IMG/VR virus record: IMGVR_UViG_3300030107_005200 | Location: 1-25,072 of that record | From: a virus | Length of the DNA stretch: 25,072 nucleotides | Strand: one strand, 5' to 3' | In this document: in pieces, positions 1-13,791 of the stretch | Layout: every line of letters begins with the position of its first letter | Position numbering within the stretch: position 1 is the stretch's first letter | The notes under the pieces: generated by a model | Databases searched by the model: none | What the model was told of the DNA's origin: nothing | Seen by the model: only the letters and a program-made list of their open reading frames with translations | Translations under genes and position numbers: made by a program

Positions 1-180
1 GCTACGCCAATAGCAAAGCCTGAGCCAAAGCCACAACCGAAGGTTGTACAACCAAGTGCAAATGCGGGTAAGACAATCCGTGTGAATGCAGATGCATTAG
101 CAGCTACGCTGTCAGCATTGACCGATGCTTGTATTGTATCGAACGACGGTACTGTATTCACGGTTCAATACCGTGCTTGA
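1..180 (+). CDS. C-terminal part of an unrecognised protein with a Pro/Lys linker
   Basis: Reading frame 1 is open from the first base and stops at TGA 178-180, giving the last 59 residues of a protein that begins outside the window. It opens with a low-complexity segment of alternating Pro, Lys, Glu and Gln (about residues 3-18), typical of an interdomain linker, followed by a compact tail of about 40 residues with a hydrophobic helix (LAATLSALTDA) and a strand-like end (GTVFTVQYRA). I do not recognise a family. It runs in the same direction as the small genes that follow, and is separated from them by a hairpin at 214-238. The amino-acid pattern (helix then strands, no stop) supports it being coding; function unknown. 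Confidence 0.7.
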   Translation, partial: ATPIAKPEPKPQPKVVQPSANAGKTIRVNADALAATLSALTDACIVSNDGTVFTVQYRA

Positions 181-213
181 GTATATCGTAGATATAATCA
201 ATACATGTGTAGT

Positions 214-295
214 CCTCGCCATTGTAATGATGGCGGGGATTTCCATTATCACTGACCTATAAACCTCATGCAAAGCATGACAAGGAACATAAACC
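214..295 (+). promoter_or_regulatory. Structured leader A (hairpin, then CAAAG-loop hairpin, then AAGG)
   Basis: Two hairpins precede the ATG at 296. The first pairs 214-222 with 230-238 (CCTCGCCAT with ATGGCGGGG, one T-G wobble, 7-base loop). The second pairs TCATGC (266-271) with GCATGA (275-280), so the apex reads CAAAG, and AAGGA follows one base later as ribosome-binding site. It is the first of six leaders with the same layout (others at 951-1034, 1737-1821, 2871-2936, 4805-4902, 7246-7303). There is no convincing CAATCA box in this copy; ATTATCA at 245-251 is the nearest. Confidence 0.55.
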
Positions 296-514
296 ATGTG
301 TAAATACACTATTACAATCGAACGATATAAGAGGCTGCGTCCACCTATGAGAAAGCCGTGGTATTGGCCACGTATTGTAATGCAATCGGAGATTGTGCAC
401 TCGGATAGCATTGATGAACTGTACACAATGAAGGAGCATATTGAACGAACAGAGCAAACGTCTGGAAGACGATGGCTGAATATACAAATTCAAGAAAACG
501 TGGAGCAATCATGA
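296..514 (+). CDS. Small phage protein of the MCKY family (copy 1)
   Basis: The 72-residue protein begins MCKYTITIER and has no recognisable catalytic motif. It is a paralogue of the 73-residue product at 1035-1256: both start MCKY-x-x-TIE, share RIV-x-x-x-E-x-V-x-SDSI in the middle and a K-x-x-IE-x-T segment after it, so the fold is probably a short beta hairpin followed by helices. The start is set by AAGGA ten bases upstream in leader A. The stop TGA overlaps the ATG of the next gene (ATGA at 511-514), a sign of translational coupling. Trp, Arg and Pro are clustered in residues 10-26 (RYKRLRPPMRKPWYWP), giving a basic patch that could contact nucleic acid; that is inference only. Confidence 0.75.
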   Translation: MCKYTITIERYKRLRPPMRKPWYWPRIVMQSEIVHSDSIDELYTMKEHIERTEQTSGRRWLNIQIQENVEQS

Positions 515-606
515 CGTTTCACGACGTATTCAGCCTTATGGTCCCGTTTCTTATGGCCGGACCATACATCTACATATTCACAATGCAATCACGGGAGCAA
601 TCATGA
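511..606 (+). CDS. Single-membrane-segment micropeptide, 31 residues
   Basis: ATG 511 to TGA 604-606 encodes 31 residues, mostly one hydrophobic stretch (VFSLMVPFLMAGPYIYIFTM, about residues 6-25) that fits a single transmembrane helix. Support that it is translated: GGAG lies six bases before the ATG; its start overlaps the stop of the gene before (ATGA) and its stop overlaps the start of the gene after (ATGA at 603-606), so removing it would break a coupled chain. The same 13 bases, GGAGCAATCATGA, occur at its start and at the start of the next gene. Function unknown; small phage membrane peptides can be host-takeover or superinfection-exclusion factors, but nothing here shows which. Confidence 0.6.
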   Translation: MTFHDVFSLMVPFLMAGPYIYIFTMQSREQS

Positions 607-941
607 GCACATATAAACCCGAATACATAGCAGGACTAATAAACTCACAACTATCTCTGATAGTTGAGAAGGTACAGCAGGGTATCATTACACATAGTCA
701 GGCTATATACACAATGGCGCTAATACAGGACGGGGTATCCGAAGCGCTTGCTGATATACGTACACACCTTGAAGCCAATACCCCTACTGTAAAGGTGGAC
801 GAGTACCGCATAGAAGAACACAATACATGCGTACAATGTAGTGGCAAGGGACGTGTATGGCACCCTGGATGCGGCGATACAGACGAGTCATGCATTGAAT
901 GTGAAGGGACTGGATTCAATCTCGATATGAGAGTGTATTGA
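603..941 (+). CDS. Small protein with DnaJ-like CxxCxGxG zinc motifs
   Basis: The 112-residue protein has an N-terminal helical part (residues 8-57) and a C-terminal Cys-rich part with C76-x-x-C79-S-G-K-G and C97-x-x-C100-E-G-T-G, the paired motif of the DnaJ zinc-binding domain, here with only two of the usual four repeats. In known families this module binds one zinc ion and contacts proteins or RNA. The J domain is absent, so it is not a chaperone of the DnaJ class. The start is coupled by ATGA to the upstream 31-residue peptide and has the GGAG ribosome-binding site. It is the last gene before leader B. The zinc motif is clear; its partner is unknown. Confidence 0.8.
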   Translation: MSTYKPEYIAGLINSQLSLIVEKVQQGIITHSQAIYTMALIQDGVSEALADIRTHLEANTPTVKVDEYRIEEHNTCVQCSGKGRVWHPGCGDTDESCIECEGTGFNLDMRVY

Positions 942-950
942 GTGTATAGG

Positions 951-1034
951 ATATATACCGGGCCACATTGTCCGGTGTATATACTCTGCAATCATGCAGC
1001 ATAACAGCCTTCAAAGCAGGGCAAAGGAAACACA
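951..1034 (+). promoter_or_regulatory. Structured leader B
   Basis: An 11-bp hairpin pairs 951-961 with 972-982 (arms ATATATACCGG and CCGGTGTATAT, one T-G wobble, 10-base loop). CAATCA follows at 989-994, itself in the loop between CTGCA (986-990) and TGCAG (995-999). A short hairpin then pairs GCC 1007-1009 with GGC 1020-1022 (plus T-G), loop TCAAAGCA, directly followed by AAAGGA 1023-1028 and ATG 1035. Same plan as leader C, with near-identical bases between hairpin 2 and the start codon. No gene fits in this 93-base gap, and no -35/-10 pair is apparent. Confidence 0.6.
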
Positions 1035-1256
1035 ATGTGTAAGTATGTTTTAACAATAGAAACACGAAGAAAGGAAGACTGTCGTGGTTGGCATGGACCA
1101 TTTGGCTCATCACGTATTGTAATAGAAACAGAATCAGTCTATTCGGATAGCATCACATTACTTAGAACGTTGAAGGGGAACATAGAGCATACTGTTTGGG
1201 GTCACTCTGCTACGGCTACAATCCAAAGAGTAGAGGAAGCACAATGCACTATATAA
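1035..1256 (+). CDS. Small phage protein of the MCKY family (copy 2)
   Basis: This 73-residue protein is the paralogue of the product at 296-514 (MCKY start, TIE, RIVIETESVYSDSI, then a helix with IEHT). The middle parts differ: copy 1 has a Trp/Arg/Pro-rich stretch, this copy has an acidic-basic turn with GWHGPFGSS. Both copies sit first behind a structured leader, so the leader and the gene were probably duplicated together. AAAGGA gives the ribosome-binding site and the stop lies inside the next gene (13-base overlap). No function can be assigned; a shared regulatory or inhibitor role in early infection is only a guess. Confidence 0.75.
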   Translation: MCKYVLTIETRRKEDCRGWHGPFGSSRIVIETESVYSDSITLLRTLKGNIEHTVWGHSATATIQRVEEAQCTI

Positions 1257-1555
1257 ACGATGAGTTTAAGCGGCGACCGTCAACGGGTATACTAATGACG
1301 TTCAAGGATGCAATACGTAAACCATATACGACCATTGGTGGCTATACAATAGCGCTATACCTATACGATGGTCAGCGTATATGTAATGAATGTGTAGTCG
1401 ATTGCTGGAAGGAGATATGCCATGACACTATACATGGATGGGACAGCCAATGGCGGGCTGGCTTCGCCGGTATACATTGGGAAGGACCGGACGAATACTG
1501 CGTACATTGTAGTAAGGCTATGCCAAGTGAGTATGGTGAGGTAAGCTGTGGATAA
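1244..1555 (+). CDS. Phage protein with two CxxC pairs (IGGYxI...C..C...W.DP/GPDxYC..C type)
   Basis: The 103-residue product carries C47-x-x-C50 and C86-x-x-C89, which would make one zinc site. The pattern IGGYTIALYLYDGQRICNEC, then W(E)GPDEYCVHCSKAMPSEYGE matches a recurrent family of unknown function that I recall from many tailed phages, where the usual wording is GGYP...LCPDC...VNWEDP..YCDHC...I.SAYGE. The frame opens at an ATG at 1196, but the start chosen is ATG 1244 because GAGGAAG lies seven bases before it and homologous proteins begin near here. It overlaps the end of the MCKY gene by 13 bases and ends GGATAA over the start of the next gene. Confidence 0.75.
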   Translation: MHYINDEFKRRPSTGILMTFKDAIRKPYTTIGGYTIALYLYDGQRICNECVVDCWKEICHDTIHGWDSQWRAGFAGIHWEGPDEYCVHCSKAMPSEYGEVSCG

Positions 1556-1727
1556 CCTCAAAGAACTATTGCAAGAAGCTATACAGGACGTGCGTGATGC
1601 AGAGGATAGAATGGCATTTGAGTTTGTAAACGATAATGACGGAAGCTATTCGCTTGCAAAGTATGAATACAATGAGGCTGTATCCAGAGCCAATAGTTTG
1701 TTCCTGAAGTTAAACAAACAAGATTGA
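1548..1727 (+). CDS. Small helical protein, 59 residues, GTG start
   Basis: GTG 1548 to TGA 1725-1727 encodes a 59-residue acidic helical protein (DNLKELLQEAIQDVRDAEDR...). Heptad-like spacing of Leu, Ile, Val and Ala suggests a coiled coil of two helices joined near residue 30. The start GTG is supported by GAGG seven bases upstream, by overlap with the stop of the previous gene (eight bases) and by uniform codon use to the stop. It is the last gene before leader C. No family recognised with certainty; similar short helical proteins are common in phage early regions. Confidence 0.65.
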   Translation: MDNLKELLQEAIQDVRDAEDRMAFEFVNDNDGSYSLAKYEYNEAVSRANSLFLKLNKQD

Positions 1728-1736
1728 TTGTAAAGG

Positions 1737-1821
1737 GTATTGCATGGGGTCCATCGCTCCATGTAATACACTGTGCAATCAAGCACATAAACCGCTCTCA
1801 AAGCAGAGCAAAGGCAATACA
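1737..1821 (+). promoter_or_regulatory. Structured leader C
   Basis: This is the clearest copy. An 11-bp hairpin pairs 1737-1747 (GTATTGCATGG) with 1759-1769 (CCATGTAATAC). A 5-bp hairpin follows, TGTGC 1772-1776 with GCACA 1783-1787, whose loop holds AATCAA. A third pairs GCTCT 1794-1798 with AGAGC 1805-1809, loop CAAAGC, directly followed by AAAGG 1810-1814 and ATG 1822. Relative to leader B the stem bases differ but pairing and the CAAAG loop are kept. Confidence 0.65.
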
Positions 1822-2154
1822 ATGAACGAACGAAACGAACTTGAAGCGCTTGGTATAGTAGAACCACGTGATACACCACCGGAGTTATTGACTGGCGGTA
1901 TTGTATTGACACGTGAGTCTATGATTACAGGTACACGACGTGAGAAGTTTATTCCTGGCCTCACTATTGGTATGCTAAAAGCATGGGAGTCTGGGGAGTT
2001 AATCCAAGACGCCATGCCTAATGTATCACATGAAGACCGTGAGTTTATTATGACTGGCATTGTACCTACTGAATGGGGCGAAGCTTTCCCTGAGTTTCTC
2101 GATGATGAAGATATAGAATGGGATACTGAAGACACATACAGTGAGCGTATGTAA
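1822..2154 (+). CDS. Phage protein of the LTRxSMxTG...DREFIxTGI.P.EW family
   Basis: The 110-residue acidic protein holds LTRESMITGTRREKFIPG, a helix ending LKAWESGELIQDAMPN and the segment SHEDREFIMTGIVPTEWGEAF. I recall this order (Arg-rich N-terminal strand, Trp-x-SG-x-LIQ-x-A-x-P, then DEREFI.TGI.PEEW...F) from a frequent phage and plasmid family of unknown function. The last 18 residues are almost all Asp, Glu, Thr and Ser, an acidic tail. The frame opens at 1744 inside leader C, but ATG 1822 is preferred because the AAAGG of the leader lies seven bases before it. The next gene starts within its stop (TAATG). Confidence 0.75.
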   Translation: MNERNELEALGIVEPRDTPPELLTGGIVLTRESMITGTRREKFIPGLTIGMLKAWESGELIQDAMPNVSHEDREFIMTGIVPTEWGEAFPEFLDDEDIEWDTEDTYSERM

Positions 2155-2330
2155 TGGAAGCAGAACAAACCATTGTATTCTATAAGTTGTTTGCAGATAT
2201 AGGTGATGAGTTGGGCAATATGATTGAATGCTTTGAACATAATGCTCAACACAGTAGCGAAGAAGCCGACGTAATACGTAAAGCAACGGCTATATATGAC
2301 CTATATATTCAATGGGTTGAATCTGAATAG
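2154..2330 (+). CDS. Small acidic helical protein, 58 residues
   Basis: ATG 2154, in TAATG overlap with the stop of the previous gene, to TAG 2328-2330. The product is acidic and helical (EAEQTIVFYKLFADIGDELG...), with one Cys and a C-terminal helix IYDLYIQWVESE. Translational coupling and lack of any other frame here support it; there is no strong separate ribosome-binding site. It is the last gene of this plus-strand block: the bidirectional terminator at 2354-2396 follows 24 bases later. Family not recognised. Confidence 0.6.
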   Translation: MEAEQTIVFYKLFADIGDELGNMIECFEHNAQHSSEEADVIRKATAIYDLYIQWVESE

Positions 2331-2353
2331 AACCTAAACAGTTTTATTAAACA

Positions 2354-2396
2354 ATAAAAAACCCCGCTCGGCGCAAGCCGGACGGGGTTTTCTTTT
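2354..2396. terminator. Bidirectional rho-independent terminator between convergent operons
   Basis: AACCCCG (2360-2366) pairs with CGGGGTT (2383-2389), and CGGC (2369-2372) with GCCG (2377-2380) around a GCAA tetraloop. A run of A lies on the left (2354-2360) and T-rich bases on the right (2388-2397), so either strand gives a GC-rich hairpin followed by a U-tract. It separates plus genes ending at 2330 from minus genes ending at 2413, exactly where a two-way terminator is needed. Confidence 0.9.
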
Positions 2397-2412
2397 ATCT
2401 ACTATTTACGTA

Positions 2413-2640
2413 TTAAAATAGTGGACTGTATTTAGGTATGGTTGTTCTACCTGGCTGTCCCTCAGTGAATACATATACGTCCTCAATAAACTGTTCACTG
2501 TATAGTTTATCACGCATTCTGTCTGATATATTAGACTTTCCATTAACGGTTAGCGCTACCTCAATAGCATCACTAAACCACATACCTTTAACTATGAGTC
2601 TACCAACAGCCTCAACGTAGTTTCTATATGTCATACGCAT
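2413..2640 (-). CDS. Small unrecognised phage protein, 75 residues
   Basis: The protein (MRMTYRNYVEAVGRLI...) has two predicted helices with a VNGKSNISDRMRDKLYSEQF segment between them and a polar end. No known motif. The start ATG 2640 is supported by GGAGG six bases upstream, in the junction GGAGGCATCATG, which recurs at 5452-5465 of the same strand and encodes the EAS residues of the gene before. It overlaps that gene by ten bases and is the last gene of the minus-strand block, 17 bases from the shared terminator. Confidence 0.7.
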   Translation of the reverse strand: MRMTYRNYVEAVGRLIVKGMWFSDAIEVALTVNGKSNISDRMRDKLYSEQFIEDVYVFTEGQPGRTTIPKYSPLF

Positions 2641-2870
2641 GATGCCTCCAATGGTTCACCCCATATATATTCAATGTGTTCACCACTAAGGAATACAGAC
2701 CGTGCCTCTATTGGTGGAGCAAAGCATACCCGAGTTTGTAAGCGATGCCTTCCCATTCCGCGCAACATAAAATGCCAAGCATTTGAGCCAATGCTTTTCA
2801 CTCCATACACTGTATACTTTCGGTCATTGATTATGACTGCGACGGGTAATGCAAATGGGTAATGTGCCAT
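2631..2870 (-). CDS. Small unrecognised phage protein, 79 residues, beta-rich
   Basis: The sequence alternates hydrophobic and charged residues (VAVIINDRKYTVYGVKSIGSNAWHFMLRG...), suggesting a small all-beta or SH3-like fold: four short strands with a basic turn (RGMGRHRLQTR). A single Cys lies at VCF and another in the C-terminal EASCV. It is the first gene behind leader D, with AAAGGAG ten bases before ATG 2870. It overlaps the next gene. Function unknown; the basic turn allows nucleic-acid contact, but this is inference. Confidence 0.7.
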   Translation of the reverse strand: MAHYPFALPVAVIINDRKYTVYGVKSIGSNAWHFMLRGMGRHRLQTRVCFAPPIEARSVFLSGEHIEYIWGEPLEASCV

Positions 2871-2936
2871 GTGTATTCTCCTTTGCCTGTCTTCGCAGGC
2901 TGATTGTAAATGGACGGGCCCAGTATGGACCCGCCC
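2871..2936 (-). promoter_or_regulatory. Structured leader D
   Basis: On the minus strand a 10-bp hairpin pairs bases 2927-2936 with 2912-2921 (arms GGGCGGGTCC and GGGCCCGTCC, two G-T wobbles, loop ATACT). CAATCA follows (2906-2901), then GCCTG (2900-2896) pairs with CAGGC (2889-2885) around CGAAGA, directly followed by AAAGGAGAATA and ATG 2870. Same order as leaders B and C on the other strand, but with CGAAG in place of CAAAG. Confidence 0.6.
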
Positions 2937-2942
2937 TATTGA

Positions 2943-3014
2943 TTACTGCCTTGCCATTAAACTACAAAGCATTCCTATACCAAACATGATTACGAATATC
3001 GTAAAGTCATCCAT
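2943..3014 (-). CDS. Possible membrane micropeptide, 23 residues
   Basis: ATG 3014 to TAA 2945-2943 encodes 23 residues consisting of a short acidic start and a hydrophobic run (FTIFVIMFGIGMLCSLM) that fits one transmembrane helix. It begins three bases after the stop of the 595-residue gene, as expected for a coupled cistron. There is no good ribosome-binding site, so translation would depend on reinitiation. A random frame of this length is possible; the strong hydrophobicity and the exact placement in an otherwise empty gap are the arguments for it. Confidence 0.35.
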   Translation of the reverse strand: MDDFTIFVIMFGIGMLCSLMARQ

Positions 3015-3016
3015 GC

Positions 3017-4804
3017 TTATGCGATAGCAGTAGCTTGCTGCGCCAATACAGGTACAAGCAACCCAGCCTCACGTTCCAATGTATCCCGAGCACAATCGTT
3101 GACGAGGTTCTGATGAGCCATACGTGTTATTGCATTGATTACATCTTGAACACTATCGCCACCACCCTGGTCTGCATACGAGTCGAACATCATTTGTACG
3201 GCAGCATCACGTCCAATACCAGAAGCAACTTTACCTTCCGCAACAAGCTTCTTAATAAGAATGTGTGGTGATGTATCACCGCCCGTTGCATAGTCGTCTA
3301 TGTCTTTATTGCTAATCATAGAACGAGCAGATGCATGTGCAAGAATACCCCAATGCTGTGCAAAGCGTTCCATAGCAGGACGAGCAGCGTTCATAGCCTC
3401 ACGTATTGCATTCATCTTCTCAGCCATGTTGCCCTTATGAATAGCACGCATGATCTCTTTCTTTTGTGAATGCAGAATAATCATATTCAAACACTCATTC
3501 CAAAACGCAATAGCACTACCGTTAATGGAGCCACCGCCTCGGTCATTACTCTTGAAGCGAAAGCCCACTTCATATAGATCACCTGCACTAAAGTCCACAA
3601 GGTCTTCCGGTGCGTGCATTGTAATGTCCATCATAAGGTTGGTGGTGTCTGCATTGTATTTAAGTTCAGCCTTGAACGGCATATCAGATACAGCGTTAGC
3701 AACCATACAAGCCACCTTATCTGCGTCGAATGACTTGTAGTTTTCACCGACTACACCGAAGATACTACGCTTGTTTACGTTCTTACGAGTACGGAACATC
3801 ATCGCTTTGTCGTAACTACAGTGTCGCTTCATGTGCTCATTAAATACATAGGCTCTAACGTCAGGGTCAAGCGCCTTCATGGTTTCAAATGCACGAGGAA
3901 ACAGTGGCCCAGCAGTTTGCGACCTGTCATTATGTGAACCAAAACGTGTGGCTGCAAGCAACTGCTTTAGTCCATGTTCTTCAAACACAAAGCCTTCGCC
4001 GTTCTTACCAGTAGTAAGAGAACCATCGTCTTGCATACGCAACTCACTTAGTTCTAATACAATATCCTCACGTTCTTCTTTCTTAATACAGTTGAAGAAG
4101 TCGGTTGCCGCAGTAGCAGCATCCGGCTTGTTGTCCCATGTAGTACGGGCAACTGCAAGGTTATCGTATCCAAGGTCAACTACCGCAGTACCACGCTCAT
4201 ACCCTGCCTTTGTAATAGATATGTTTGCAGTGGGCCGAGCCAGTCCAAGTTCTGCAAGCCACGTATCATGTAGTTCTTGCCGCTCTTTGGCTACCTCGCT
4301 GACCTCACCGTAGTTAACTGTACGCTTGTCACTATGGTTACTTACACCATTGTTACCAGAGCCCCATCCACCTTGAAATGTAGGCTTCTCATCTTCACTA
4401 TGCAAAGGCGTATCTCCATTGTCAGCAAACTTTACCTTATCGAATGGTTCGTTTGTACCTACAGGAATAGCGTTCATGTTTTCACTAAGCATATCCATGA
4501 TGCTTGTAGTGTTGTCATACTCTGAAGACATACCCTCAACATCTGCTGGCTCATCGTCACTACATACGTCTTGCATAAAGGCAGTGTATTCATCAACAAC
4601 TTCTTCAATGACTTCGGTAATGCTTTCTTCTTGTGTTGGCTCGGGGCCTTCCATAATACAACCTGAAGAATCTACTCCAGCCCAGTTGCCTGCTTTATAA
4701 TCCGCAAAGAAAGCGGCTTGTGCTTGGTCCCTTGCATCCTCTTTTACGTGATGCTTAAACTCTTGGAAGTCTCCATCGGGGTTGCAATAAATAAATGTAA
4801 ACAT
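3017..4804 (-). CDS. DUF932-like protein, 595 residues
   Basis: The central part (about residues 335-485) resembles the DUF932 family of phage and plasmid proteins: FRTRKNVNKRSIFGVVGENY (337-356), GDLYEVGFRFKSNDRGGGS (408-426) then a conserved Ala/Phe-rich segment with N-x-C (WNECLNMI), and a basic helix R-x-IHKGNM. The family has no proven activity; some members sit in mobile elements and near anti-restriction or repair genes. Here it has an N-terminal 60-residue module, an acidic low-complexity region (60-140) and a C-terminal 110-residue helical tail, which makes it longer than the domain alone. It has its own structured leader (E) with AAGGAG before ATG 4804 and large size among tiny neighbours, which suggests an abundant early or middle product. 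Domain call is from residue pattern only. Confidence 0.7.
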   Translation of the reverse strand: MFTFIYCNPDGDFQEFKHHVKEDARDQAQAAFFADYKAGNWAGVDSSGCIMEGPEPTQEESITEVIEEVVDEYTAFMQDVCSDDEPADVEGMSSEYDNTTSIMDMLSENMNAIPVGTNEPFDKVKFADNGDTPLHSEDEKPTFQGGWGSGNNGVSNHSDKRTVNYGEVSEVAKERQELHDTWLAELGLARPTANISITKAGYERGTAVVDLGYDNLAVARTTWDNKPDAATAATDFFNCIKKEEREDIVLELSELRMQDDGSLTTGKNGEGFVFEEHGLKQLLAATRFGSHNDRSQTAGPLFPRAFETMKALDPDVRAYVFNEHMKRHCSYDKAMMFRTRKNVNKRSIFGVVGENYKSFDADKVACMVANAVSDMPFKAELKYNADTTNLMMDITMHAPEDLVDFSAGDLYEVGFRFKSNDRGGGSINGSAIAFWNECLNMIILHSQKKEIMRAIHKGNMAEKMNAIREAMNAARPAMERFAQHWGILAHASARSMISNKDIDDYATGGDTSPHILIKKLVAEGKVASGIGRDAAVQMMFDSYADQGGGDSVQDVINAITRMAHQNLVNDCARDTLEREAGLLVPVLAQQATAIA

Positions 4805-4902
4805 CTTATTCTCCTTGTAGCCGGACTTCGCCGGACTGGTTCTGATTGATGGTAGGGACGTTTCCCCTACCCTTCACTTTGTTCAGGGTAGGGAAACGCC
4901 CC
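4805..4902 (-). promoter_or_regulatory. Structured leader E with a long hairpin
   Basis: On the minus strand, bases 4886-4901 pair with 4855-4872 in a stem of about 16 bp with two bulges (TACCC/GGGTA and GTTTCC/GGAAAC cores; 13-base loop), the strongest hairpin of the early region. CAATCA lies at 4848-4843. Two CCGG blocks (4831-4834 and 4821-4824) can pair around CGAAGT; on the plus strand they belong to a direct repeat CCGGACT (4821-4827, 4831-4837). ACAAGGAGAATA then leads into ATG 4804, and AAGGAGAATA is shared with leader D. Confidence 0.6.
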
Positions 4903-4917
4903 ACCCAAAGGTTTCGC

Positions 4918-5265
4918 CTATTCTTCAACGACTTTAATGTAGGCATTAGCAATAATATCTTTCATCTTCCATAGTGGTAACTCTACATGTGAGCCGACTG
5001 GCTTAATGCGAGAACCGGTATCCTCAAAGAACCCACAAGAATCTAATCCCATAAGTATTTGTGGAGTAAGTTCATACCAAGGAACAAAAAACTCTCCATC
5101 ATCTATGTCTATAGATGGAATGTTCTTTGACACCACAGCAAAAGGTAGTCCCTCGTTTGTATGTAACATGACTGCTGTTCTTCCGTTCATGTATGAGCCC
5201 AAAGATAAAATATATTTTTCATCTTCAATCTCCACATGACCGATTGGCTTAGGAGGACTTAGCAT
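4918..5265 (-). CDS. Phage protein resembling the DUF4313 family
   Basis: The 115-residue protein opens with GHVEIEDEKYILSLGSYMNGRTAVMLHTNEGLPFAVVS and continues with DIDDGEFFVPWYELTPQILMGLDSCGF. I recall this order (a strand, then NGR-x-A-x-x-L, GLP-(F/Y)-A-x-x-(S/T)-x-N(L/I)P, an acidic D-E-F stretch, then a helix ending with a G-(V/F)) from a widespread phage and conjugative-element family annotated DUF4313, with no known function. GGAGGTG lies six bases before ATG 5265. It overlaps the previous gene by 17 bases and is last in the chain that starts at 7245, before leader E. Confidence 0.65.
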   Translation of the reverse strand: MLSPPKPIGHVEIEDEKYILSLGSYMNGRTAVMLHTNEGLPFAVVSKNIPSIDIDDGEFFVPWYELTPQILMGLDSCGFFEDTGSRIKPVGSHVELPLWKMKDIIANAYIKVVEE

Positions 5266-5455
5266 TAAGCACCTCCATAGCTTTTTCTACACGGGACAAA
5301 GCCCCATCCAGATTATTACGTACTTGGTAACTATCCCAGTCGTCCCATAGATCCCTACCGCATCCACTACATGATGACTTCGTAAGTTTTATGGAGTACC
5401 TAATGTCAGATAGTATAGCGCGTGCAGTTGCAAGGTCTTCATACATGTTGGTCAT
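5249..5455 (-). CDS. Small helical protein with one CxxC, 68 residues
   Basis: The product is mostly helical (YEDLATARAILSDIRYSI, then a C-terminal helix LSRVEKAMEVL) with one C29-x-x-C32 knuckle followed by GRDLWDDWDSY between the helices. One CxxC pair alone could bind metal only as a dimer or with a partner. The start ATG 5455 sits in GGAGGCATCATGA, overlapping the stop of the previous gene. Family not recognised. Confidence 0.7.
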   Translation of the reverse strand: MTNMYEDLATARAILSDIRYSIKLTKSSCSGCGRDLWDDWDSYQVRNNLDGALSRVEKAMEVLNAKSS

Positions 5456-5808
5456 GATGCCTCCATATTTTCTGATAGATTATCCGTAATCTTTGATGCA
5501 TCTAAAGGTCTTACACAAAGAACAGTTACATCGTTCCAAACAAAAGAACACTGCATAGACCTTGGAGACACAGCGATTACAGTTACGCCAAGAGGATCAC
5601 AACCATAATCAAATACTATCTTTGGGTTTTGTATTACTCTATCAAACGCTTCGTCGTTTAAATGTATTGATGCACCAAAGGCACCTACGTCTACAGATAT
5701 AACCGCAGTTAAATACTTCTCGTATGGCTGGCTCTCTAATACATCTTTATGATACTTCAGAAAGTCTGATATAGATTGCATTTGTTTTTCTGAGTCTTCT
5801 ATATTCAT
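5452..5808 (-). CDS. Unrecognised phage protein, 118 residues
   Basis: The product begins MNIEDSEKQMQSISDFLKYH and holds strands such as YLTAVISVDVGAFGASIHL and VTVIAVSPRSMQCSFVW, suggesting an alpha/beta domain. The frame opens at ATG 5823, but ATG 5808 is chosen because GGAGG lies eight bases before it and because it overlaps the stop of the upstream gene as ATGA, like other junctions here. The gene ends with MEAS, encoded by the ribosome-binding site of the next gene. No motif points to a function. Confidence 0.7.
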   Translation of the reverse strand: MNIEDSEKQMQSISDFLKYHKDVLESQPYEKYLTAVISVDVGAFGASIHLNDEAFDRVIQNPKIVFDYGCDPLGVTVIAVSPRSMQCSFVWNDVTVLCVRPLDASKITDNLSENMEAS

Positions 5809-6017
5809 AGAGCCGCCCTCCATGTTCCAGAATCTTCTTCAAATAGTTCCACAGTAATGTTGTCTGTTACTCGACACAGCCAAACACGCATTGTTCCTGT
5901 ATCTATTTTTAAATCATCTGCTTGAGCACAGCACAGCGTTGGCATTTCATCCAACTCATCAACTGTATAGTTACAAATCTTTGCAACATCTTCAACGGTA
6001 ATAGTATATTTACTCAT
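5805..6017 (-). CDS. Unrecognised phage protein, 70 residues, MSKYTITVED start
   Basis: The N-terminus MSKYTITVEDV is close to MCKYTITIER of the product at 296-514, but the rest does not match; DVAKICNYTVDELDEMP looks like a short helix-turn-helix-like segment and CCAQ carries two adjacent Cys. Start ATG 6017 is preferred over the GTG at 6020: GGGAGGTGAGTGATG gives a Shine-Dalgarno six bases away and a TGATG overlap with the stop of the gene before. Role unknown. Confidence 0.65.
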   Translation of the reverse strand: MSKYTITVEDVAKICNYTVDELDEMPTLCCAQADDLKIDTGTMRVWLCRVTDNITVELFEEDSGTWRAAL

Positions 6018-6280
6018 CACTCACCTCCCATTATGTCAAAGCCTATGATATTTGCTTTGCTATTTGGACACCCAAACATATGTCCCAAATCAGTAGGAGC
6101 ATTACAGCATTTGTAATGTCCATCCTCTATCTTTGCGTTACAGCCTTCACCTTCCATGCAGTACCACTCTCCATAGCCAGTACCACAACGGCGCATAGCT
6201 TCTTCCATTACGTATCTGTCACCTTCCCTTCCACAGTTTGCACATGTAAACGTGTCGTTCATGCTGAATGAATTAGGCAT
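6017..6280 (-). CDS. Cys-rich putative zinc-binding protein, 87 residues
   Basis: Eight Cys in 87 residues: C13-x-x-C16 (TCANCGREGD, a classic zinc-ribbon knuckle), C32, C41, C47, C58-C59 and C71 with H55 and H67. That is enough for two zinc sites. GGAGG lies ten bases before ATG 6280; the gene overlaps the previous one by eight bases and ends with GGE, encoded by the ribosome-binding site of its follower. Zinc binding is inferred from spacing; the partner, nucleic acid or protein, is unknown. Confidence 0.7.
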   Translation of the reverse strand: MPNSFSMNDTFTCANCGREGDRYVMEEAMRRCGTGYGEWYCMEGEGCNAKIEDGHYKCCNAPTDLGHMFGCPNSKANIIGFDIMGGE

Positions 6281-6614
6281 AAGGATATACCCTCCTAATC
6301 ATCTTTCTTTTGCCATCTATTACTTCCCAAACAGTACCGTTGTATAGATTGATACCGTCTGCGTGTCTTGCATTGGCTGTTACTATCTTGAACCGCTTTC
6401 CATTACGGTCAACACCAGTCACATGATACATTCGGTCAGTTAGTTTGTAGCCCAACTGTGATGCTGCATAGTTAATGTGCTTGGCTGTAGTAGTTGACCA
6501 CCACCCAAGAGGTACGACAGCTTTCTGTTCGTGGTATATCTCTGCTACATTTGTATCGTAACTGACAATGTAGTTGCCTTGAATACATAGGTTCTTTTTA
6601 TACTTATTAAGCAT
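6273..6614 (-). CDS. Recurrent phage protein (NVAEI...STTTAKHINYAASQLG type), 113 residues
   Basis: The pattern NYIVSYDTNVAEIYHE...LGWWSTTTAKHINYAASQLGYKLT matches a short conserved block that I recall from many hypothetical phage proteins, where it reads YS.TT.KHINYVA.ELGL. Basic residues cluster in the second half (DRNGKRFKIV, GKRKMIRRV). The ORF begins at GTG 6617, but ATG 6614 has the better spacing from GAAGG and overlaps the previous stop as TGATG. No biochemical role is known; the conserved block and its place in early operons suggest a host-directed or regulatory protein, an inference. Confidence 0.7.
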   Translation of the reverse strand: MLNKYKKNLCIQGNYIVSYDTNVAEIYHEQKAVVPLGWWSTTTAKHINYAASQLGYKLTDRMYHVTGVDRNGKRFKIVTANARHADGINLYNGTVWEVIDGKRKMIRRVYPYA

Positions 6615-6838
6615 CACTCACCTTCCAATAAAACTGATACGTCCTCTTTAGTAGGAACACCGTCGCCGTTGTCGTACCAAGGGTCGCCAGGGTTTAGTAG
6701 TCGGCCCGTGTGTGAACAAAACATGTCGTAGTATTTGTTAGGGTCGTCCTCGGCACGCATACCGAAAGTCCAGTTAAGCACCACGTTTACGCGGCGACTG
6801 TATGGATACCTGTATCGTATGACTACTGCGCTTGGCAT
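6614..6838 (-). CDS. Unrecognised phage protein, 74 residues
   Basis: The product (MPSAVVIRYRYPYSRRVNVVLNWTFG...) is Arg- and Tyr-rich at the start and ends acidic (EDVSVLLEGE). The middle DMFCSHTGRLLNPGDPWYDNGDG has loop-rich composition. Start and stop are tied to neighbours: TAATG with the previous gene, TGATG with the next. GGAGGTGAG lies six bases before the ATG. Family not recognised. Confidence 0.65.
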   Translation of the reverse strand: MPSAVVIRYRYPYSRRVNVVLNWTFGMRAEDDPNKYYDMFCSHTGRLLNPGDPWYDNGDGVPTKEDVSVLLEGE

Positions 6839-7245
6839 TACTCACCTCCTTCATCGTCGAGTCCCATCATCGCAGAGTCTTCCTCGAATGCGTTAGGATC
6901 TGTTTTGTATCGTTCAAGGTTTTGAAAGATAAACTGTTCACGTATTGCGTCGAGACTTAGCGAATCCCAAATAGCCTCGGACAACTGCAATCGGTTTACT
7001 TCACTGTTTTCTATTACTTCAACCTCCCTTTCGTTAAGTATTTCCTTACTTGTATTGACCAACCACTCCAGACGTTCGTTGTCCAGGTCCATTAAGTCAC
7101 GCATTCTTATTACTACATTGACTACAGCAGTGAAATCATCCACATCAATACTGGTTGTCGTACCGTTGACGTCAATGTCAACGTGTGCAGTATCTATATA
7201 CAACTCTTGTCGATACGATATTTGCGTTAATGGTTTGCGTTCCAT
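6838..7245 (-). CDS. Unrecognised phage protein, 135 residues, first gene of an early operon
   Basis: The first half is beta-like (ELYIDTAHVDIDVNGTTTSIDVDD), the second half helical and acidic (DNERLEWLVNTSKEILNEREVEVIE..., AIREQFIFQNLERYK) and the end is DDEGGE. No known motif. It is the first gene behind the promoter at 7314-7342 and leader F, with AAAGGA eight bases before ATG 7245, so it should be strongly expressed early. Its tail GGE is produced by the GGAGGTGAGTAATG junction. Confidence 0.7.
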   Translation of the reverse strand: MERKPLTQISYRQELYIDTAHVDIDVNGTTTSIDVDDFTAVVNVVIRMRDLMDLDNERLEWLVNTSKEILNEREVEVIENSEVNRLQLSEAIWDSLSLDAIREQFIFQNLERYKTDPNAFEEDSAMMGLDDEGGE

Positions 7246-7303
7246 TTGTTTTCCTTTGCGGCACTTTGTCCGCTGCTATTTTCACCGTTCCAAAATCGGC
7301 ACG
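7246..7303 (-). promoter_or_regulatory. Structured leader F
   Basis: Minus-strand reading: a first hairpin pairs CCGT (7303-7300) with ACGG (7287-7284), with an inner CC/GG pair across a G-A mismatch. A second pairs GCGG (7273-7270) with CCGC (7261-7258) around ACAAAGTG, directly followed by AAAGGA and ATG 7245. Unlike the other five, this leader has a clear upstream promoter, whose predicted start near 7307 would put both hairpins at the very 5' end of the transcript. No CAATCA box. Confidence 0.55.
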
Positions 7304-7305
7304 GC

Positions 7306-7342
7306 TTGACCCCAAGTTAACGGAGCGGGAAAACCCTGTCAA
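7306..7342 (-). promoter_or_regulatory. Promoter with overlapping operator-like repeat for the 7245 operon
   Basis: On the minus strand TTGACA (7342-7337) is a perfect -35, followed by a 17-base spacer and TAACTT (7319-7314) as a poor -10. On the plus strand TTGACC (7306-7311) and TTAACG (7317-7322), 11 bases apart, repeat the layout of TTGACC and TTAACC at 8552-8568 by the divergent regulator. The overlap of -10 and repeat fits a repressor site. The promoter call rests on consensus only. Confidence 0.55.
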
Positions 7343-7355
7343 GTCCAGGCGGCAG

Positions 7356-7399
7356 CTACTCCGTAGGAGTAGAAAGTTTTCTACGCGCACGTGACGCGC
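7356..7399. other. Overlapping palindromes after the 296-residue gene
   Basis: Bases 7356-7372 form a 7-bp palindrome (CTACTCC with GGAGTAG, loop GTA). Bases 7369-7384 form another (GTAGAAA with TTTCTAC, loop GT) that shares GTAG 7369-7372 with the first, so only one can fold at a time. A GCGC-flanked CACGTG block follows (7385-7399). They lie between the stop at 7403 and the promoter for the next operon; a weak terminator or an upstream protein-binding site is possible. There is no long U-tract. Confidence 0.5.
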
Positions 7400-7402
7400 A
7401 GG

Positions 7403-8293
7403 CTACTCGCGCAGGTCAGGCTCGGATTCGAGCAGGTTCCGAAGCACCAAGCCACCCGCTGTCTCAAACTGTGTGTTGTTATCAAATGCATCTTCAAGCA
7501 TACGAATATATTGAGCGCGGAAAATACGGTCTATGTCTCCAACCATTTCCCATCTACATGTATAGCCTTGGTTCCACCATTGAGGACACAATCGCGCGAG
7601 TAATGATACAGCTTGTTGATACACTGCCAATGCAGCTTCCCGAGACACAAACGGTATACGCATTTCTATTAATGCAGCCAACTCTATAAGCTGTGCTGCT
7701 TTGTCTGCTTCTAATGCTAATACAAGTGCAACAAGTGTGGCATGTCTTATAGTTGCATGACGTGGGTATAGTAAGTCGTGGTCAGTCCACTCTGTTGAGA
7801 TACCTCTTGCATAGGACAGTGCTGTACATTCGTATCCGATTGCTGCCGCGTCCAGTATTCTTTGGTTAACCAATGCATGTACGATCTTTCTGTATCTGTA
7901 GTTAGACTTCTCTGAAACCTTTGATTCATTCCGTGGAGATAGCCTATCAATAACAGCCCTCGCACCCGCGTCTGCCCACGCAACCAGATCCTCGCGGTCC
8001 AAACCCAATACATTTTGGACGGGCGCTGGCAGTAACGCATTGGGATACCTCCAAAGTTTTCCGTTTCTACCTATGAATATCTCACATCTACCAGGGCATA
8101 GTCCAAGCACATGATTGTTAATACCAATCTGTATCATGCCTGCGTTTAGTATTTCCCACTTGGTTCTTTTACCTTCTTTCTTGTAGTAGTTACCTATAGG
8201 TACACCAAGTCTGTTTAGATTTAGTCTGCCTTCATAGAAAGATTTGCTTGGATAAACGTCAGTTTTCCTGGTCTTTATCTTCTTGCTCGCCAT
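7403..8293 (-). CDS. Unrecognised protein, 296 residues, partner of the HTH regulator
   Basis: A basic N-terminus (MASKKIKTRKTDVYPSK) leads into a first domain (residues 20-110) with GRCEIFIGRNGKLWRYPNALLP, then a mainly helical, Ala/Leu-rich part (LVALVLALEADKAAQLIELAALIEMRIPFVSREAALAVYQQA), and a C-terminal DNNTQFETAGGLVLRNLL. No signal peptide or membrane helix. I find no catalytic motif that I can name. It overlaps the HTH gene by 35 bases with GAGG ten bases before ATG 8293, so the two are co-expressed and may act together, for example as regulator and effector. That pairing is the only clue to its job. Confidence 0.7.
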   Translation of the reverse strand: MASKKIKTRKTDVYPSKSFYEGRLNLNRLGVPIGNYYKKEGKRTKWEILNAGMIQIGINNHVLGLCPGRCEIFIGRNGKLWRYPNALLPAPVQNVLGLDREDLVAWADAGARAVIDRLSPRNESKVSEKSNYRYRKIVHALVNQRILDAAAIGYECTALSYARGISTEWTDHDLLYPRHATIRHATLVALVLALEADKAAQLIELAALIEMRIPFVSREAALAVYQQAVSLLARLCPQWWNQGYTCRWEMVGDIDRIFRAQYIRMLEDAFDNNTQFETAGGLVLRNLLESEPDLRE

Positions 8294-8540
8294 TACTGAT
8301 GGCCTCTATAATGTTAATACAATCCCTTATTGAAAACTCAAGAACATTCTTGATCTTCATTAGTGTAGCCATAGATGGCATACGCTTTCCGCTTTCGTAG
8401 TAGCAGACGGATGCTGGTGTCACGCCTAAGTGACCCGCAAGCACCCGCTGAGACATGCCCGCTTGCTCCCTCCTGGCACGGAGAATCTGAGAAACTTCCA
8501 AGGCTTCGCCTTGGAACGTGGTCGGTTTTGAGCGATTCAC
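8259..8540 (-). CDS. XRE/Cro-CI type helix-turn-helix regulator
   Basis: The HTH_3 fold is plain: SQILRARREQAGMSQRVLAG is helix 1 to 2 and HLGVTPASVCYYESGKRMPS contains the recognition helix, followed by LMKIKNVLEF; an acidic C-terminal tail of about 15 residues follows. Start is uncertain. GTG 8540 has AAGGGGG upstream and gives 93 residues; TTG 8501 has AAGG seven bases before it and gives 80 residues, starting right at the domain; ATG 8451 has AGGAGG but would drop helix 1. A frame also opens at 8588. The gene is divergent from the helicase operon, next to repeats at 8541-8568, so it probably represses that promoter and the 7306-7342 one, which has the same repeat. No peptidase or RecA-cleavage domain is present. 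Confidence 0.8.
   Translation of the reverse strand: MNRSKPTTFQGEALEVSQILRARREQAGMSQRVLAGHLGVTPASVCYYESGKRMPSMATLMKIKNVLEFSIRDCINIIEAISNGEQEDKDQEN
8496..8516 (-). promoter_or_regulatory. Perfect hairpin at the start of the HTH gene
   Basis: TTCCAAGGC (minus 8516-8508) and GCCTTGGAA (8504-8496) pair perfectly over 9 bp around GAA, so the apex is GGCGAAGCC. AAGG in one arm and an in-frame TTG in the other (8501) sit seven bases apart: folding would hide both a ribosome-binding site and a possible start codon. If GTG 8540 is the true start the hairpin is inside the coding part. The C-GAA-G apex resembles the loops of leaders D and E. Confidence 0.55.
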
Positions 8541-8569
8541 TTGACACCCCCTTGACCAGAGGTTAACCC
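8541..8569 (+). promoter_or_regulatory. Promoter/operator array for the helicase operon
   Basis: Three six-base blocks lie exactly 11 bases apart: TTGACA (8541), TTGACC (8552) and TTAACC (8563). The first also serves as a -35 with a 17-base spacer to TAACCC, a poor -10, giving a start near 8576, 50 bases before the helicase ATG. Blocks one helical turn apart next to an HTH gene suggest an operator. The pair TTGACC-N4-GTTAAC recurs exactly at 7306-7321. Confidence 0.55.
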
Positions 8570-8626
8570 CCTCCAACCGGCAGAGCAACCGGTCACCGAA
8601 AAACTACTTCCCAAAAGGGCGACAGC

Positions 8627-10024
8627 ATGGATCTACAACCTATTGATACCGAGAAGATGGTTCTTGGTACACTACTAGTATCAAGTGGTACTAAACTAGT
8701 ACTCATTGATGATGTACTAAAAGTTAATTTCTTTTCTAATGAGTACAATAAGAACATTTATAAATGGGTACTCAAGAGATTCTCTGAAGGTAAACCAGCA
8801 GATATAATCTCACTTGTTGAAACTGTTGGACCTACTACTATTAAAAAGTTTGGTGGTCCTGCTTATGTGTGTGGTCTTGGAGACAACACAATAATCACAG
8901 ACGAGAGACTTAGACAATACGCACAGAGGATACATTCACACTACAGGCTTAGAAAGCTAAAGAGTGCGGCACAGCAAATACTCGGCCACCTTGAAGACTT
9001 AGACTTACCTCCAGAAGAAATCATACGTATTGCAGAAACAAGCGTACTTGATGTAAGTGGCGGTGTAGATTCAATACAAAGCATACTTTCTATGAAGGAG
9101 GCAGCGGCAGAACGTAAGGCTTCATGGAAACGAATCATGGATGGTCAGGAGGTAGAGTATGTACCTACTGGATTCGGTAGCTTTGATGACCATTATGTTG
9201 GATGGCCTAAAGGATACATGACTATTATTGGTGGTCGTCCTGAGATTGGTAAGACAATGTTTCTTGTATCTGCTGTATTGAGAGCAGCACAATCTGGAAT
9301 ACCTCAAGGTGTATTGTCTATTGAAATGCCACGATGGAAGCTGATTGACCGAATGGCTTCAATCATAGCAGGCGTACCTATTACTGGATTACATGAAAAG
9401 AGTGAGTCCGATGCACAGTCTGTAATGGATGCAGCCGACCAGCTAATGAAAGAGCCTATCTATTTAGATGACGCATCATCTACTGCTGATTCTGTTGAGT
9501 CTTCTATACGTAGGATGGCAAGGCAGCATGGTTGCCAGGTAATATGGGTAGACTACTTGCAGTTGATAAGGCCACCATCACACTTGCCAAGCAATCGTAA
9601 TCGCTCATGGGAAGTAGATGAGATTAGCGAAACATTACGTAGATGTGCAAAACAAGAGAACGTAGCAATCATTTCGTTAATGCAGTTGAACCGTGGTACA
9701 GAAGAAACGTTTACTGAAGGGCGTAAAGGTGTACCAGGGTCGCATCACTTTAGGGGATCGGACAAACCTTTACATGATTCTGCGTTGGCGTTTGGTTTAT
9801 ACAGGCAATTCCAATACAAGAAACCAAAGAAAGACTACGGTGACGAATACACAAATGAGGAAGTTGCTGACATGTTTCAGCCGCTTGAACTTATATCGCT
9901 CAAGAGCAGGGACCATGCTAAAAAGAACATTACGTTGTGGTCGAGATTGAAGCTACAAAGAGTCTACGATGAGACAGACGAAGGCTTCCGGTGCCCCGAT
10001 TGGGGTTCTAACTTTCAGCATTGA
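8627..10024 (+). CDS. dnaB: Replicative DNA helicase, DnaB type
   Basis: This 465-residue protein should unwind DNA at the phage fork as a hexamer. It has a short DnaB N-terminal domain (residues 1-110; KMVLGTLLVSS, then EGKPADIISLVE and the GGPAYVCGL loop), a linker helix, and a RecA-like C-terminal ATPase. Walker A is GGRPEIGKT (202-210), Walker B VIWVDYLQL (305-313), followed by motif 3-like LMQLNRGTE (351-359) and a GSDKPLHDSALAFGLYR segment (377-393) where DnaB has SG..I.QDAD.V..LYR. Glu206 in Walker A replaces the usual Gly, Ser or Ala, and the QD of the later motif reads HD. Length is normal. The start ATG 8627 has AAGGGC seven bases upstream. First gene of the replication operon. Confidence 0.92.
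   Translation: MDLQPIDTEKMVLGTLLVSSGTKLVLIDDVLKVNFFSNEYNKNIYKWVLKRFSEGKPADIISLVETVGPTTIKKFGGPAYVCGLGDNTIITDERLRQYAQRIHSHYRLRKLKSAAQQILGHLEDLDLPPEEIIRIAETSVLDVSGGVDSIQSILSMKEAAAERKASWKRIMDGQEVEYVPTGFGSFDDHYVGWPKGYMTIIGGRPEIGKTMFLVSAVLRAAQSGIPQGVLSIEMPRWKLIDRMASIIAGVPITGLHEKSESDAQSVMDAADQLMKEPIYLDDASSTADSVESSIRRMARQHGCQVIWVDYLQLIRPPSHLPSNRNRSWEVDEISETLRRCAKQENVAIISLMQLNRGTEETFTEGRKGVPGSHHFRGSDKPLHDSALAFGLYRQFQYKKPKKDYGDEYTNEEVADMFQPLELISLKSRDHAKKNITLWSRLKLQRVYDETDEGFRCPDWGSNFQH
8666..8701 (+). repeat. Two 15-base direct repeats inside the helicase gene
   Basis: GGTAC-N3-ACTAGTA occurs at 8666-8680 and 8687-8701, a 21-base period (two helical turns). Each holds the palindrome ACTAGT. They encode GTLLVSS and GTKLVLI, so partly a seven-residue peptide repeat. 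A replication origin inside a replication gene is known in other phages, but two copies without an AT-rich region is weak evidence for an origin. Confidence 0.35.
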
Positions 10025-13204: not shown

Positions 13205-13713
13205 TGAAGAACATATACCTTGGTATTGATCCTGGTAAGGATGGTGCATTGGTCGCTATTAATGATGATGGTGCTGTTGCGGGAAGCTTTCTCACTTCCC
13301 GTGACTTCACTACCACTATAGGTAAGTCATCTAAACGCGAGTACCTTGCTTCGAGAATGTCCTATGCAATAAAATGCTTAGGTGGGAAACATAATATAAA
13401 GCTTGCTGTTGTTGAAAAACAATCAGCGAGGCCAGGACAAGGTGTATCTTCTACATTTAGTACGGGGTTTGGTTACGGTCTTTGGGTTGGCATACTAGCA
13501 GCACATGGAATACCGTTTGTTGAGGTACGACCTAAGACGTGGACAACACATATTCTTAGGGACGTACCAGGAGAGGGTAAAAGCCGTTCAGTTTACGCTG
13601 TAATGAATCGTATGCCTGACCTTGACCTTACCCCTGGACTAAAGAGAAAACCCCACGACGGCCTTGCTGACGCAGGTTGTTTAGCACTTTACGCATATCA
13701 TCTTGAGGTGTAG
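13201..13713 (+). CDS. RuvC-like Holliday-junction resolvase
   Basis: 170 residues with the RNase H-like core of RuvC: YLGIDPGKDGALVAI gives acidic D10, AVVEKQSARPGQG gives E72, and PHDGLADAGCLALYAY gives D153 and D157, so all four metal-binding acids are in place. QGVSSTFSTGFGYGLWVGIL is the helix seen in phage RuvC families, and FVEVRPKTWT the next strand. It would cut branched DNA left by recombination or replication before packaging. Start ATG 13201 overlaps the previous stop (ATGA); a second ATG follows directly. Its last codons and stop are part of the tRNA gene that follows. Confidence 0.85.
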   Translation: MMKNIYLGIDPGKDGALVAINDDGAVAGSFLTSRDFTTTIGKSSKREYLASRMSYAIKCLGGKHNIKLAVVEKQSARPGQGVSSTFSTGFGYGLWVGILAAHGIPFVEVRPKTWTTHILRDVPGEGKSRSVYAVMNRMPDLDLTPGLKRKPHDGLADAGCLALYAYHLEV

Positions 13714-13776
13714 TTCAATTGGAAGAACGCCTGACTGTTACTCAGGAAGTTGTTGGTTCGAGTCCAACTGCCTCAG
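13704..13776 (+). tRNA. tRNA-Asn (anticodon GTT)
   Basis: A complete cloverleaf folds from 73 bases. The acceptor pairs TGAGGTG with TGCCTCA (two G-T wobbles) with G73 as discriminator; the D arm is GTTC/GAAC with GG in the loop; the anticodon stem is CCTGA/TCAGG around CTGTTAC, anticodon GTT at 13737-13739 after T33; the T arm is GTTGG/CCAAC around TTCGAGT. No CCA is encoded. It overlaps the RuvC-like gene by ten bases. A lone phage tRNA usually supplements a codon used more by phage than host; AAC/AAT use was not counted here. Confidence 0.95.
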
Positions 13777-13791
13777 TACCTCCCCTTCCTT

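Follow-up and report, generated by a model that had tools for sequence, protein, structure and literature searches.

We identified a repeated hairpin leader in front of early genes in a virus sequence of 25,072 bases (IMG/VR record IMGVR_UViG_3300030107_005200, the whole of which was analysed and is called the window here). Each copy carries a short stem that changes from site to site with its pairing kept, closed by a conserved CRAAG loop and placed just before a Shine-Dalgarno (SD) sequence and start codon. Compensatory stem changes among related genomes confirmed, at the level of sequence comparison, that this is an RNA element. We consider it about an even chance that the hairpin is a repeated cis-acting leader in the translation-initiation region of selected early genes, with a loop that would be read by a trans-acting factor. 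A preliminary description of this DNA had listed six such leaders, and all their hairpins were found at the positions it had given. The features are as follows, with z-scores from RNAfold and bit scores from the covariance models R1 and R2 described below.

212-242, plus strand: copy 1, upstream GC-rich hairpin (z -3.35)
266-280, plus strand: copy 1, core hairpin TCATG-CAAAG-CATGA, read directly (R1, 16.4 bits)
282-286, plus strand: copy 1, SD AAGGA; start codon at 296
952-985, plus strand: copy 2, upstream hairpin (z -3.74)
986-999, plus strand: copy 2, possible middle hairpin CTGC-AATCAT-GCAG, seen in the sequence; stem unlike that of copy 3, loop nearly the same
1007-1022, plus strand: copy 2, core hairpin GCCTT-CAAAGC-AGGGC (R1, 33.6 bits)
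1023-1027, plus strand: copy 2, SD AAAGG; start codon at 1035
1737-1769, plus strand: copy 3, upstream hairpin (z -6.45)
1773-1786, plus strand: copy 3, possible middle hairpin GTGC-AATCAA-GCAC; identical letters in the leaders of the orthologous genes in relatives G003 and G004
1794-1809, plus strand: copy 3, core hairpin GCTCT-CAAAGC-AGAGC (R1, 32.1 bits)
1810-1814, plus strand: copy 3, SD AAAGG; start codon at 1822
2912-2936, minus strand: copy 4, upstream hairpin (z -4.89)
2885-2900, minus strand: copy 4, core hairpin GCCTG-CGAAGA-CAGGC (R1, 31.8 bits)
2878-2884, minus strand: copy 4, SD; start codon at 2870
4851-4905, minus strand: copy 5, long upstream hairpin with apex A-C(AAA)G-U (z -6.53)
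4821-4834, minus strand: copy 5, core hairpin CCGG-CGAAGT-CCGG (R1, 16.7 bits; R2, 24.6 bits)
4811-4816, minus strand: copy 5, SD; start codon at 4804, of the gene for a protein of 595 amino acids (aa)
7285-7304, minus strand: copy 6, weak upstream hairpin CCGTGCC-GATTTT-GGAACGG (z -0.52)
7258-7273, minus strand: copy 6, core hairpin GCGG-ACAAAGTG-CCGC, that is GCGG-A-CAAAGT-G-CCGC (R1, 32.0 bits)
7253-7257, minus strand: copy 6, SD; start codon at 7245

To compare these leaders with others, relatives were collected from viral contigs through the 595-aa protein, the helicase, a 281-aa protein and a 296-aa protein. They are metagenomic contigs representing about ten independent genomes, and some of the copies in them are near-duplicates. 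We built one covariance model (R1) from 14 copies and a second (R2) from 26 sequences. R1 matched the window, nine nearer relatives and, clearly, the more distant G017; nearly all of its matches lay in non-coding leaders, and it recovered copies outside its training set (G006:4249-, G017:44945+, G003:14792+, G004:9656+, G004:9929+ and G001:58722+). Copy 1 was a weak match to R1 because its loop has five bases instead of six. With R2, the leaders scored at least 19.6 bits and the remaining matches at most 17.6 bits, a split that describes the set and is no test of it, since R2 was trained on those leaders. An R2 match at L061:9760 (19.3 bits) falls within coding sequence and was left out of the count, and matches at L018:18901 and L012:11317 were excluded because they lie inside called genes. 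A search of a genome collection with the RNA model missed the G017 copy that cmsearch had found, and negatives of that search were not used. In two genomes of a sister clade (47 and 54 kb, helicase 54% identical), the models found no hairpin.

Across the 26 sequences, 93% of the cells in the stem alignment were paired, all five pairs varied on both sides, and G-U pairs accounted for 4 of 130. Cells with a double change numbered 52, versus 16 in shuffles, and the covariation score was 1.03, compared with 0.24 for shuffled arms and at most 0.20 when the partners were slid. Part of this alignment had been gathered using pairing as a criterion, a bias from which the scan of 34 sites described next is free. 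The claim in the preliminary description that the stem changes are compensatory, for which it had proposed a covariance model and related genomes as the test, was thus borne out.

Given that any search for hairpins inevitably yields hairpins, we tested the loop and the pairing separately. Every CRAAG outside the called genes of eight related genomes was taken without preselection and kept when followed by an SD, a start codon and an open frame of 40 codons or more, with gene calls from a simple script. Of the 34 CRAAG sites in this leader context, 17 could form at least four of the five pairs that flank the loop in the hexaloop register, 13 of them all five. When the 3′ arms were dealt among the sites in 5000 trials, the mean number of paired sites was 3.67 and the maximum 10. 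Moreover, CAAAG ranked first of all 1024 pentamers with 14 paired sites, the next pentamer reaching 4; an earlier scan under other rules had given 15 versus 5. In the same context, the sense loop was found at 19 sites and its reverse complement at 4. The pairing-blind scan and this strand bias together exclude a chance origin of the CRAAG leader pattern.

Read from 5′ to 3′, the module opens with a GC-rich hairpin, continues through an A/C-rich linker to a covarying stem of 5 bp that bears the CRAAGN loop, and ends with the SD and the start codon. The upstream hairpin spans about 7-19 bp, has no terminator-like U-run and is not conserved in sequence, some examples carrying UUCG loops. Its z-score averaged -2.9 over the 26 leaders and was below -1.5 in 17. 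Five of the window copies have a strong upstream hairpin, with z between -3.4 and -6.5, and that of the sixth does not reach significance (z -0.5), in agreement with the weaker last copy noted before; the position of this sixth hairpin is kept in G006 (GTGCC-atcttc-GGCAC). The linker contains 44% A, 31% C and 11% G (26 leaders). A subset of leaders (copies 2 and 3 of the window and relatives in G001, G003 and G004) shares a conserved AATCA-centred stretch, which can fold as a GTGC/GCAC or CTGC/GCAG hairpin or pair with bases preceding the first hairpin. The CAATCA previously placed between the two hairpins is therefore present, with the correction that copies 2 and 3 can hold it inside a third small hairpin.

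The core comprises five pairs and a C-R-A-A-G-H loop. In 26 loops A4 and G5 were invariant and C1 and A3 were kept in at least 90%, the variants being CATAGC, CCAAGT and GAAAGT. This base conservation suggests a pseudo-triloop in which C1 would pair with G5 and N6 would be flipped out. In some copies the stem has an A-G or A-A mismatch beside the loop, as in GCGGA/GCCGC and ACCTA/RAGGT; in copies of the latter form, the 3′ arm may double as the SD. Copy 5 has a four-pair stem in the window, and its orthologous leader in G004 reads TTCGG-CAAAGT-CCGAC. The apex of its upstream hairpin lies beyond tandem G-A mismatches, with a triloop of AAA, GAA or GTA in relatives, and may duplicate the loop proposed to be recognised. 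The distance from stem end to start codon was 10-21 nucleotides (median 14), with the hairpin in sense orientation. A spacing of no or one base between stem and AAGG, as first described, holds for every window copy except the fifth, where it is about 4 nucleotides. The copies are not fully independent, because the genes behind copies 1 and 2 are paralogues (47% identity) and a stretch of 59 nucleotides is 78% identical between leaders 2 and 3. The paralogy also means that the downstream protein families are not all unrelated, contrary to what had been stated.

The leaders follow the gene layout of the window, which is probably a partial genome since its relatives span 48-59 kb. A rightward gene run from position 1 to 2330 converges with a leftward early operon, extending from about 8.5 to 2.4 kb, at the following feature.

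2357-2395, strand unassigned: terminator between the two convergent early operons, an inverted repeat with a T-run

A Cro/CI-like helix-turn-helix (HTH) gene lies at 8259-8540 on the minus strand, a replication block with a DnaB helicase, an exonuclease-like gene and others runs rightward from 8.6 kb, and additional genes run leftward from 25 kb. All six leaders are confined to the early side, where the hairpin occupies each of the six same-strand gaps longer than 90 nucleotides between 0.2 and 7.3 kb. The gaps ahead of the helicase, the HTH gene and the late genes of the window contain no CRAAG hairpin, so the remark that none precedes replication or late genes is correct for this window.

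An apparent early promoter was identified just upstream of copy 6.

7315-7342, minus strand: apparent early promoter TTGACA-N16-TTAACT, proposed from recurrence

The arrangement TTGAC-N16-17-GTTAA directly precedes the module in window copy 6, G001, G004 and G006. Its reading as a promoter is based on this recurrence, since a generic consensus promoter scan does not list it. Behind these apparent promoters, the complete 5′ untranslated region (5′UTR) consists of the two hairpins, the linker between them and the SD, and elsewhere the module occupies an intercistronic gap. As the distance to the start codon is kept in both settings, the module is most readily interpreted as a leader for translation initiation of the gene that follows. 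Recurrent palindromes of the form TTRACC-NNN-GGTYAA (TTGACCAGAGGTTAA, TTGACCCCAAGTTAA) were also observed at the apparent early promoters, at 7303-7320 and 8540-8570 and in G001, G004 and G006; they are perhaps operators of the HTH repressor encoded at 8259-8540.

We propose that the GC-rich hairpin would close off the RNA upstream, that the A/C-rich linker would remain single-stranded, and that the 5-bp CRAAGN hairpin stands at a near-constant distance from an open SD. The stem would need only to pair, and the loop would be recognised by a putative trans-acting factor, most likely a phage RNA-binding protein and possibly a host one. Sitting at the ribosome entry site, the bound factor would set the translation of all marked genes jointly, either repressing it by blocking ribosomes or stimulating it by recruiting them. 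We favour such a factor because a fixed loop, a free stem and an open SD are the usual design of an operator recognised by protein or RNA; both the factor and the production of the leader RNA are inferred here. The early-translation binding site offered in the preliminary description as one of two mechanisms fits the SD-adjacent position best. The hairpin precedes many different genes and in this respect behaves as a portable module; orthologous genes keep, alter or lose it. Somewhat more tentatively, we suggest a phage-wide post-transcriptional regulon in an uncultured phage lineage, in which one factor would read the CRAAGN pseudo-triloop and switch several early genes together.

Several points weigh against this proposal. 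The leader of the 595-aa gene has the hairpin in G000, G003 and G004 and an altered form of it in G001, G002 and G007, and lacks it in G006, G008 and G017, so that individual genes can do without it. It might also be folding alone that keeps the loop. We also searched for a candidate factor. The 296-aa protein (7403-8293, minus strand) is a core early protein, conserved at 60-81% within the lineage and at 42% in the sister clade. A weak KH_6 match below the cut-off (E 0.007) made it a candidate; it gave no significant family, fold or PDB match, and its structure model (pLDDT 69) shows an N-terminal beta-barrel-like part and helices. It was not favoured as the binder, because the fold match is insignificant and the protein occurs in the hairpin-negative sister clade. 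The 595-aa protein was DUF932-like at best (E 0.09-0.18), its model was too poor for use, and it was likewise set aside. The other early proteins had no match to an RNA-binding domain. A host search by way of prophages yielded no relative of the 595-aa or 296-aa protein in 84,980 species genomes, and no close cultured phage was found. A role of the loop as a standby site for the ribosome was also considered; CRAAG is able to pair with CUUUG, but its fit to the 16S tail extends over just about 4 bases, and the idea was set aside.

The strongest competitor, which we nevertheless regard as unlikely, is that both hairpins passively insulate the ribosome-binding site from RNA upstream and shield the message at its 5′ end, the loop being unread and C(RAA)G merely closing well. 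Within these genomes, the SD is indeed more accessible behind the hairpin than at the remaining genes (0.58 versus 0.39, p = 0.0009), the upstream hairpins are strong without being conserved in sequence, the stem sequences vary freely, and the CRAAG hairpin can be lost from orthologous leaders. However, stability alone predicts UUCG or GNRA core loops, and instead the loop is almost fixed at four positions, two of them invariant.

Less probable than a passive leader is antitermination of the put/nut type, in which the RNA with its two hairpins, unaided or assisted by a phage protein, would modify RNA polymerase for terminator read-through in the early operons. HK022 put and lambda nut are antitermination RNAs with hairpins early in both early operons; the copies studied here likewise stand near the start of both, some right behind apparent promoters, and their two-hairpin layout resembles put. 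In contrast to put and nut, they are tied to start codons at a near-fixed distance and several occur in one short operon. A scan found no strong intrinsic terminator inside the left operon before about 2357-2395. Lambda nut consists of boxA followed by boxB, whereas a boxA-like word occurred once in 21 leaders and the loop is not the boxB pentaloop.

We give slightly less credence still to mRNA processing, the second mechanism first offered, in which an endonuclease would cut the A/C-rich linker. Each of the two resulting messages would then have a hairpin guarding its new end, the first at its 3′ end through the upstream hairpin and the second at its 5′ end through the CRAAG hairpin. An unstructured linker, a core hairpin that ends directly before the SD and, in the window, an upstream hairpin that often begins about 10-20 nucleotides past the preceding stop codon would all suit such cleavage. 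Processing or protection became less likely because the module is also the entire 5′UTR right after the apparent promoters of G000, G001, G004 and G006, with no upstream message to process. Furthermore, typical RNase E sites are not U-poor, as this linker is, and RNase III needs longer hairpins than many of those seen upstream. Both antitermination and processing are possible readings that fit the position of the module less well than translation does. Finally, repeats upstream of genes are often operators, and the ESAS repeats of Cluster K mycobacteriophages were so read by their authors (PMC3203893), but a repeat that acts as DNA, for example as the operator of a repressor or as part of a promoter, and is palindromic by accident is very improbable here, as the arms vary with pairing kept (G-U pairs included), which a DNA operator does not need, the conserved part is the asymmetric loop and not the arms, and the orientation relative to the gene is fixed.

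We then compared the leader with known elements. The 4227 covariance models of Rfam gave only matches far under their gathering scores in window positions 1-9000 (E up to 5), and the sole Rfam match in segments of the relatives was a tRNA, in two of them. No paper describing the CRAAG leader motif was found in the open-access literature. The closest system in genome distribution is that of the start-associated and extended start-associated sequences (SAS/ESAS) of Cluster K mycobacteriophages (PMC3203893), with similar motifs in Microbacterium Cluster EF phages (PMC7302621). Like the CRAAG leader, they occur in many copies per genome, before the starts of varied non-structural genes and in larger intergenic gaps, and combine a ribosome-binding-site core with an upstream inverted repeat, with a role in translation initiation suspected. 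SAS is defined by a fixed 13-base core, GGGATAGGAGCCC, which contains the SD (PMC3203893), whereas the CRAAG leader has a CRAAGN loop on a variable stem and an SD mostly outside it. The authors saw little to support RNA pairing or hairpins in ESAS (PMC3203893), whereas the CRAAG stem varies and covaries in support of RNA pairing; the CRAAG leader is thus a different RNA.

In proposed mechanism, the closest system is the T4/RB69 gp43 translational operator, also a small hairpin with a conserved loop beside the ribosome-binding site of a phage gene; it differs in its single target (autoregulation), UAAC loop and known binder, while CRAAG leaders have many targets (PMC3014915). The T4 RegA regulon, in which one phage factor sets the translation of many early mRNAs, matches the role proposed here, but RegA sites have no RNA structure and the CRAAG leader is a defined hairpin (PMC3014915). 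In shape only, the loop resembles the iron-responsive element, with its C-N-N-N-G-N hexaloop (CAGUGN, a pseudo-triloop) on a short stem in a 5′ leader (PMC9966554). The loop bases are other than CAGUGN, there is neither a conserved bulged C nor a link to iron or the iron regulatory protein, and homology is not proposed. Start-associated repeats have been reported in several phage groups, the best-described case being without support for RNA structure. With a structure backed by compensatory changes in several genomes, the function of such motifs becomes a matter for straightforward binding and reporter assays. Should a single factor read the loop, this would amount to a new RNA-binding specificity in phages and to a portable switch for translation.

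Some further features of the window were observed. The left end of the window (1-180) is the terminal 3′ part of an early gene; the relatives of this gene (281-301 aa) share a CVKTG motif, have no Pfam match and are preceded by a CRAAG leader in several genomes. A tRNA-Asn gene at 13703-13777 adjoins a RuvC-like gene. On the structural side, the 597-aa protein encoded at 18671-20464 contains runs of TNATNATNAT and is probably fibre-like.

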